Of a DNA stretch of 64,000 bases, positions 52,689 to 54,654 are shown one piece after another; the first letter of the stretch is position 1, and each line of letters begins with the position of its first letter. Position numbers and translations under genes: made by a program. The stretch spans positions 472,830 to 536,829 of the forward strand of contig NZ_LMLE01000001.1 of the NCBI RefSeq assembly GCF_001422545.1, written 5' to 3'. Under the pieces are notes generated by a model. The model was not told the DNA's origin and made no database searches. It saw only the letters and a program-made list of their open reading frames with translations. Source of the stretch: Pedobacter sp. Leaf41 (GTDB lineage Bacteria > Bacteroidota > Bacteroidia > Sphingobacteriales > Sphingobacteriaceae).

Positions 52689-53546
52689 ATGAAACAATTA
52701 TTTTCAACTGCAATATTATCACTTTTGGCAATTGGTGCATGGGCACAAAAAAATGATGGAACCACGAAGTCATTAGTAAGTGCAGAAAAAGATTTCGCAA
52801 AATCTATTGCAAAAAATGGAGATAAAGACGCTTATCTGGAGTATTCATTATCAAGTGCGTTGGTTTTCAGGCCGAATCCGGTAAATGTTAGAACGTTTTA
52901 TAATGCACAGAAAGCAGATGAAAATAACGTTACCTGGGAACCAAATTTAGCAAAGGTTTCCCGTAGTGGCGACTTGGGTTTCACTACTGGTCCTTACGCG
53001 GTGAGTGGTTCGGAGAAAAAATATGGTCAGTATCTATCCATTTGGAAATCGGAGAATGGCAAGTGGAAATTAGCCATTGATTTAGGCACATCGAGCAATA
53101 AACCTTTAGATAAATCTGCTCCTAAATTTATTGAACCAAAAGACCATGTTGCCCCAAAATTTTTGAATGAGAAACAATTAAAGGCTGGAAAGGATATCAT
53201 TTCTACGACTGAAAAAACTTTGAACACGCTTTTGAAAACACATGGTATTGCCGCCTTTGGTGGCTTTTTAACAGAAGATGCCCGTCTGTTATTTCCGGGT
53301 AACGAAGCCATTAACGGAAAAGGCAAAATCATTTCTTTTTATAACGGAATGATTAGTAAAATTAACTTAAAAACAACTGGTGTTGATAAGGCAATTGGAA
53401 GTGATTTGGCTTATACCTATGGCGTGGCCACAATAGATTATAAAGCCGATTTACGCGAAAGTTTTAACTACGTTTTTGTTTATGAAAAAGCTGCAGATGC
53501 CAGTTGGAACTTAATTGTTCAGGCTTTTGTACCTGCAGAAAGATAA
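52689..53546 (+). CDS. Secreted DUF4440/SnoaL-like protein with two domains
   Basis: The 285-residue protein has a signal peptide (LFSTAILSLLAIGAWAQ) and two repeated NTF2-like halves. The first is about 28-140, with SLVSAEKDFAKSIAKNGDKDAYLEYSL and YLSIWKSENGKWKLAIDLGT. The second is about 165-283, with TTEKTLNTLLKTHGIAAFGGFLTEDARLLFPGNEAINGK and AASW. The family is DUF4440-like; the function is unknown (probably ligand-binding or catalytic). It has a terminator downstream. Confidence 0.8.
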   Translation: MKQLFSTAILSLLAIGAWAQKNDGTTKSLVSAEKDFAKSIAKNGDKDAYLEYSLSSALVFRPNPVNVRTFYNAQKADENNVTWEPNLAKVSRSGDLGFTTGPYAVSGSEKKYGQYLSIWKSENGKWKLAIDLGTSSNKPLDKSAPKFIEPKDHVAPKFLNEKQLKAGKDIISTTEKTLNTLLKTHGIAAFGGFLTEDARLLFPGNEAINGKGKIISFYNGMISKINLKTTGVDKAIGSDLAYTYGVATIDYKADLRESFNYVFVYEKAADASWNLIVQAFVPAER

Positions 53547-53565: not shown

Positions 53566-53597
53566 GGGGCTCTCATAAAAAGATAGCCCTTTTTTTA
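53566..53597 (+). terminator. Terminator after the DUF4440-like gene
   Basis: GGGCT (53567-53571) pairs with AGCCC (53585-53589), followed by a run of seven T. The stem is short but the T-run is strong. Confidence 0.7.
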
Positions 53598-53638: not shown

Positions 53639-53702
53639 GCCCCGATTGAAGCGGGCACGAATCCCGGTTTTCTCGGGAGAGTAAAGTGAAAAGCGGGAAC
53701 AA
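53639..53702 (+). repeat. AGCGGGCACGA-type interspersed repeat, copy 3
   Basis: GCCCCGATTGAAGCGGGCACGA is followed by the hairpin TCCCG/CGGGA (53662-53666, 53674-53678) and GAGTAAAGTG with AAAGCGGGAAC. It matches the reverse copy at 14168-14227 block by block. Confidence 0.65.
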
Positions 53703-53769: not shown

Positions 53770-54654
53770 ATGAATAAAAGATTACAGATCATACTTCTGC
53801 TCTCGCTTACATTTTTACAGGTTTCGGCTCAAAAGCAAAAATTTGATTTACAGGGTAAAGCTGGTGCACGTGGAATAATGCCCGAAAATACAGTTGAAGG
53901 TATGCTCAAAGCTCTTGATTTGGGGGTAACGACCCTAGAGATGGATGCCGTTATTTCGAAAGATAAAAAAGTTGTGCTATCTCAGGAGCCCTATTTTAAC
54001 AATGAAATTTCTTTAATGCCAAATGGTAAACCGATTTCTTTGAAAGATCAAAAGAAATACAACATTTACAAAATGGATTACGAGGACGTGAAGAAGTTTG
54101 ATGTTGGAAGTAAAGTTCATGCTCGTTTTCCCGGTCAGGTGAAGTTTAAAGCCTACAAGCCTTTGCTTAGTGAGACGATTGACGCGGTAGAAACTTATGT
54201 GAAAGAAAAAAGGTTAAAAAAGCCTGTTTATAGTATTGAAACGAAAACGATTAAAAATGGAGATAACGATTTTCATCCTGAGCCTGCTGAGTTTGTAGAG
54301 TTGATTATGGAAGTTATCAACGCAAAAAAGATTTCGAAACGGGTAATTATTCAATCTTTTGATATGCGAACGCTCCAGTATTTGCATGAGAAATATCCTA
54401 AGATACAAACTTCGCTTTTGATTGATGAAAAAGAGCCATTCGAAGATTATATTGAAAAATTAGGTTTCAAGCCTACCATTTACAGTCCATATTCGGTTTT
54501 AGTAGGTAAAGGATTGGTAGATCGCTGCCATGCCATGGGCATCAAAATTATTCCGTGGACGGTGAATAGTTTAAAGGAAATTAAATATTTTATGAGCTTG
54601 GGAGTTGATGGTGTAATTACCGATTTCCCGAACTTAATGGGGCAGCTGAAATAA
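53770..54654 (+). CDS. Glycerophosphodiesterase-like protein lacking both catalytic histidines
   Basis: The 294-residue protein has a signal peptide (LQIILLLSLTFLQVSAQ) and the GDPD fold: GARGIMPENTVEGMLKALDLG, TTLEMDAVISKDKKVV, YSIETKTI, IIQSFDMRTLQYLHEKYP, IIPWTVNSL and GVDGVITDFPNLM. In active relatives the HR pair precedes GARG and the second catalytic His is in the SHEP position. Here the first place is Lys30-Ala31 and the second is Gln72 (SQEP). The metal-binding Glu57 and Asp59 (LEMD) remain. It is therefore probably a pseudoenzyme or has other chemistry. A terminator follows. Confidence 0.9.
   Translation: MNKRLQIILLLSLTFLQVSAQKQKFDLQGKAGARGIMPENTVEGMLKALDLGVTTLEMDAVISKDKKVVLSQEPYFNNEISLMPNGKPISLKDQKKYNIYKMDYEDVKKFDVGSKVHARFPGQVKFKAYKPLLSETIDAVETYVKEKRLKKPVYSIETKTIKNGDNDFHPEPAEFVELIMEVINAKKISKRVIIQSFDMRTLQYLHEKYPKIQTSLLIDEKEPFEDYIEKLGFKPTIYSPYSVLVGKGLVDRCHAMGIKIIPWTVNSLKEIKYFMSLGVDGVITDFPNLMGQLK

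Follow-up and report, generated by a model that had tools for sequence, protein, structure and literature searches.

A candidate genus-wide pseudoenzyme of the GDPD family in Pedobacter

Glycerophosphodiester phosphodiesterases (GDPDs), which cut phospholipid headgroups, are characterized by the motif HR...EN...ExD...H(D/E), in which two histidines provide general acid-base catalysis and the metal is held by three acidic ligands; metal-ligand alanine mutants of the GDPD from T. tengcongensis were reported to be inactive (PMC4926365). GDPD-like proteins are likewise present in plants, and the mode of action of the SHV3/SVL group has been described as unclear (PMC9412048). A pseudo-GDPD from the soil bacterium Pedobacter or related bacteria was not described in the literature that we searched, which does not prove its absence. 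The comparison presented here supports the classification of one orthologous group as a genus-wide pseudoenzyme of the GDPD family.

The window, that is, the entire stretch of 64,000 nucleotides analysed here, is from the 4.78 Mb genome of Pedobacter sp. Leaf41 and encodes the pseudo-GDPD as an intact open reading frame of 294 residues on the forward strand (positions 53770..54654). The protein matches the GDPD profile PF03009 over positions 3-243 of 244 with 102.4 bits (E 5.6e-29; the curated cut-off is 23.6 bits), and an AlphaFold2 model computed with 39 sequences of the clade (pLDDT 93.7, pTM 0.87) exhibits the TIM-barrel fold of the family. The nearest solved structure is the GDPD 3ch0 (Z 41.1; 45% identity; rmsd 1.6 Å over 269 residues), and GDPDs lead the list of PDB matches, so that the intact fold surmised in the preliminary description is borne out. 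Its assumption that the protein is secreted is likewise probable, since a recognisable putative Sec signal peptide (residues 1 to ~21, with the VSAQ region and devoid of a lipobox Cys) is apparent at the N-terminus by inspection. Judging from its sequence, the window protein is probably a periplasmic or secreted GDPD-fold pseudoenzyme. One domain of a multidomain beta-1,3(4)-glucanase (PDB 7wwc/7ww4) shares the fold of the pseudo-GDPD. Separately, locus L004 (G000:C8:235937-236590) encodes a secreted paralogue whose GDPD motif is apparently intact and which is joined to an apparent GH16-type glucanase domain.

The motif of active GDPDs with its two catalytic histidines is not present in the window protein. 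In a nearly end-to-end alignment with 3ch0, the HRG of the latter is found opposite Lys30-Ala31-Gly, and its second histidine opposite Gln72 of an SQEP motif (CAG, 53983..53985, forward strand); the alignment with 30 further homologues agrees. Lys30 and Ala31 are encoded by AAA GCT at 53857..53862 of the same strand, inside the intact frame, just as had been read from the DNA at the outset, and it is not only the first histidine but also the arginine of the HR pair that is replaced. All three acidic metal ligands are present by sequence: Glu57 and Asp59 in the motif Glu57-Met-Asp59 (53938..53946, forward strand), and Glu157 in Glu157-Thr-Lys159 (54238..54246, forward strand), which also provides the phosphate-site lysine and has been kept better than any other part of the former site. 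The preliminary description had asked whether related strains keep Lys and Gln, and many of them do: the same signature is found in a 98% identical neighbour species and in 57 sequences in all. Since the signature is common to 57 sequences, a sequencing error, chance or a peculiarity of the strain can be ruled out. A relocation of the catalytic histidines was considered as well and is ruled out by the lack of any clade-specific conserved histidine among the columns of the orthologues.

Orthologues of the window protein are present in 142 of 145 sampled Pedobacter genomes, including all 132 near-complete ones, and the three genomes without an orthologue are only 79-84% complete. The 142 loci correspond to 141 distinct sequences, which exhibit 57-98% identity with the window protein, have in nearly all cases an intact frame of about 290-300 residues, and form one clade (SH-aLRT 99 in a quick tree); in other genera of the family, the identity of even the top matches does not exceed 55%. 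For comparison, we used 30 homologues from outside the clade, that is, paralogues within Pedobacter and genes of other genera. When the full catalytic set is defined as the seven residues H30, R31, E57, D59, H72, E157 and K159, it is found in all 30 of these homologues versus none of the 141 distinct orthologues, most of which retain three or four of the seven. Position 30 is His in 30/30 homologues versus Lys, Asn, His, Gln, Asp or Ser in the orthologues, and position 72 is His in 30/30 versus Gln (107), His (32) or Ala (2). The metal-ligand motif LEMD had been described as intact, which holds for the window protein but not across the family: Glu57 is kept in only 69 and Asp59 in only 74 of the 141 orthologues. 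Glu157 (140/141) and, for the most part, Lys159 (124/141) are retained, which is also compatible with a reaction that is weak or altered.

The ways in which the catalytic set is incomplete are diverse. The combination of the window protein (KA at 30-31, E.D at 57-59, Q at 72 and E.K at 157-159) accounts for 57 sequences, and NR/K.E/Q, QR/G.N/H, NR/N.N/Q, HQ/N.G/H and more than 20 further combinations are found in other orthologues; sister lineages of the window's group have Asn, Gln, Asp or Ser at position 30 and Lys, Gly, Val, Asn or Ile at position 57. Seven orthologues depart from the full set solely by H72Q. Because no single catalytic-site substitution is common to all orthologues, the losses must have occurred by at least two routes, namely H72Q with Glu57 kept, and replacement of Glu57 with His72 kept. 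On the tree, position 57 requires at least 15 letter changes, and position 30 switches between His and non-His at least 6 times. A separate observation concerns six orthologues (L078, L137, L152, L160, L163 and L164) in which both histidines and three carboxylates are present, but in which E57D is found and the phosphate-site Arg and Lys are lost (R31Q and K159A/S); within the clade, these six would be the prime candidates for residual activity.

Outside the catalytic site, the gene is under strong purifying selection: over 196 close pairs the median dN/dS is 0.025 and the maximum 0.086, and at 95 positions conservation across the clade reaches at least 97%. Within the clade, columns 30, 57 and 59, which are invariant in the other homologues, reach the 90th, 99th and 86th percentile of variability, respectively. 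Constraint was lost at columns 30, 31, 57, 59, 155, 195, 217 and 283, the first four of which are catalytic or metal-site positions. Hence, the orthologues combine missing catalytic residues with a gene kept by purifying selection, as expected for a conserved pseudoenzyme. Among the columns with at least 97% conservation, loops of the catalytic face are over-represented (35/94 vs 70/270, p 0.003), and clade-specific residues exhibit a weak tendency towards the same face (10/24, p 0.09); the loops were defined from the DSSP assignment of the model and drawn after the conservation list had been viewed, so that these p-values are indicative. Conservation outside the catalytic site could also, in part, reflect structure alone.

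The reading of the window protein as a pseudoenzyme, first put forward on account of the two lost histidines, is thus strongly supported at the sequence level by full catalytic sets in 0/141 orthologues vs 30/30 homologues, by catalytic columns free of constraint, and by a fold under purifying selection. Since the orthologues freely replace catalytic residues, the function which they share cannot depend on the GDPD reaction. We consider it probable that the protein is a Pedobacter-wide, non-cutting GDPD-fold pseudoenzyme, which most likely would bind at the old catalytic face. The orthologue would have split from active GDPDs before Pedobacter radiated, and hydrolysis may have become dispensable in the ancestor of the genus because a non-catalytic job was already present; the catalytic residues would then have decayed separately, lineage by lineage. 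As the rest of the protein, including the loops of the catalytic face, is held tightly, we infer a binding role: the likeliest job, and the weakest step of this scenario, would be to bind, without cutting it, a ligand that is a phosphodiester or resembles a headgroup, or else to bind a protein, presumably via the still conserved loops SxEPYFN, IDEK and VGK together with W263.

One may ask instead whether Lys30 and Gln72, along with the metal site Glu57/Asp59/Glu157, constitute a new active site in the lineage of the window protein, with a different chemistry or substrate. Throughout the Lys-Ala group (60 sequences, with pairwise identities down to 63%), Glu57, Asp59 and Gln72 are indeed kept, and Lys30-Ala31 is found in 58 of the 58 sequences covered there, the two others being cut by a late start codon in the gene model. 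However, a diverse subset of this group is invariant at about 49% of all columns, which weakens the case for new chemistry, so that invariance at the five sites is only mildly surprising (~3% if the sites are independent); moreover, one member of the group lacks Glu157 and Lys159, and variation at positions 30 and 57 in the sister lineages implies that the shared function of the orthologue cannot need such chemistry. Repurposed catalysis is hence unlikely. Slightly less likely still would be its layered form, in which a new active or sensor site made of the metal site, Lys30 and Gln72, with a chemistry unknown for GDPD folds, has been added in the Lys-Ala/Gln lineage to the genus-wide non-catalytic function.

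The protein might also be a regulatory subunit that pairs with, or titrates, an active paralogue from its own GDPD subfamily. Pseudoenzymes commonly work in this mode (PMC10211241), and the genome of the window does encode two catalytically intact paralogues of that subfamily (42-44% identity). Nevertheless, the pseudoenzyme is found without any other close paralogue (at E 1e-20) in 12 genomes of at least 95% completeness, so that an active close paralogue is unlikely to be an obligatory partner; a looser version is accommodated by the more distant GDPDs which all 12 of these genomes contain, and we regard a regulatory subunit as improbable overall. That catalytic residues were lost in several ways would also be expected if a duplicate GDPD were simply turning into a pseudogene, but the frames are intact, all near-complete genomes retain the gene, synteny is kept, and the dN/dS of 0.025 is far below 1. 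Selection and genus-wide retention refute such decay, to which we assign next to no probability. A non-cutting pseudoenzyme thus continues to be the preferred explanation.

The gene directly upstream encodes a secreted, single-copy DUF4440 protein with two NTF2-like stretches (52689..53546, forward strand; PF14534), and of the 141 pseudo-GDPD loci, 135 have a DUF4440 gene at this place in the same orientation. Three of the six non-syntenic loci are located at contig ends or breaks, and in two genomes the genes are about 10 and 26 kb apart. The adjacency at first argued strongly for an operon or module partner, a proposal that was rejected in view of a conserved terminator and the wider distribution of the DUF4440 gene. 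Specifically, a hairpin followed by a T-run and resembling an intrinsic terminator (53566..53597, forward strand; -9.8 kcal/mol) is located between the two genes, and such an element is found in 119 of 121 intergenic gaps vs 10-12 of 121 in shuffled sequences (at -8 kcal/mol), which suggests that the two genes may be transcribed separately; a simple consensus terminator scan did not list the hairpin. Across the family, 375 of 399 genomes contain DUF4440 homologues, most of them outside Pedobacter, and also where the pseudo-GDPD clade was not found. Neither the co-transcription nor the co-occurrence that would define a two-gene module was found, and the adjacency probably represents conserved synteny rather than functional partnership. 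The same intergenic region contains a GC-rich, palindrome-like element at 53639-53698 (GCCCCGATTGAAGCGGGC, then CCCGGTTTTCTCGGG). Its interpretation as a dispersed repeat was rejected, with near-copies of the core at only two places genome-wide.

The pseudo-GDPD offers a natural experiment of unusual clarity: every near-complete genome of a large genus retains the orthologue, its active site has been lost in various ways, and its fold is tightly held. The differently inactivated orthologues hence provide direct material on non-cutting roles of the GDPD fold. Because family profiles still match the pseudoenzyme as a glycerophosphodiester phosphodiesterase, GDPD activity is probably misassigned across Pedobacter. 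When compared with described systems, the window protein shares with the GDPD 3ch0 from Cytophaga hutchinsonii (i) the TIM-barrel, (ii) the PENT motif, (iii) E157 and W263, and (iv) most of the pocket walls; unlike 3ch0 and the GDPD family, every orthologue lacks the complete HR...ExD...H catalytic motif. The plant SHV3/SVL proteins are likewise extracytoplasmic and GDPD-like, a likeness at the level of the family, but they are GPI-anchored and linked to a cell-wall and cellulose phenotype. The fungal RNase II pseudonucleases (Ssd1) differ in fold, ligand and organisms, yet, according to the reports (PMC8097288, PMC8934651), they represent what is proposed here for the pseudo-GDPD, that is, a binding protein which has lost its active site and kept its fold.
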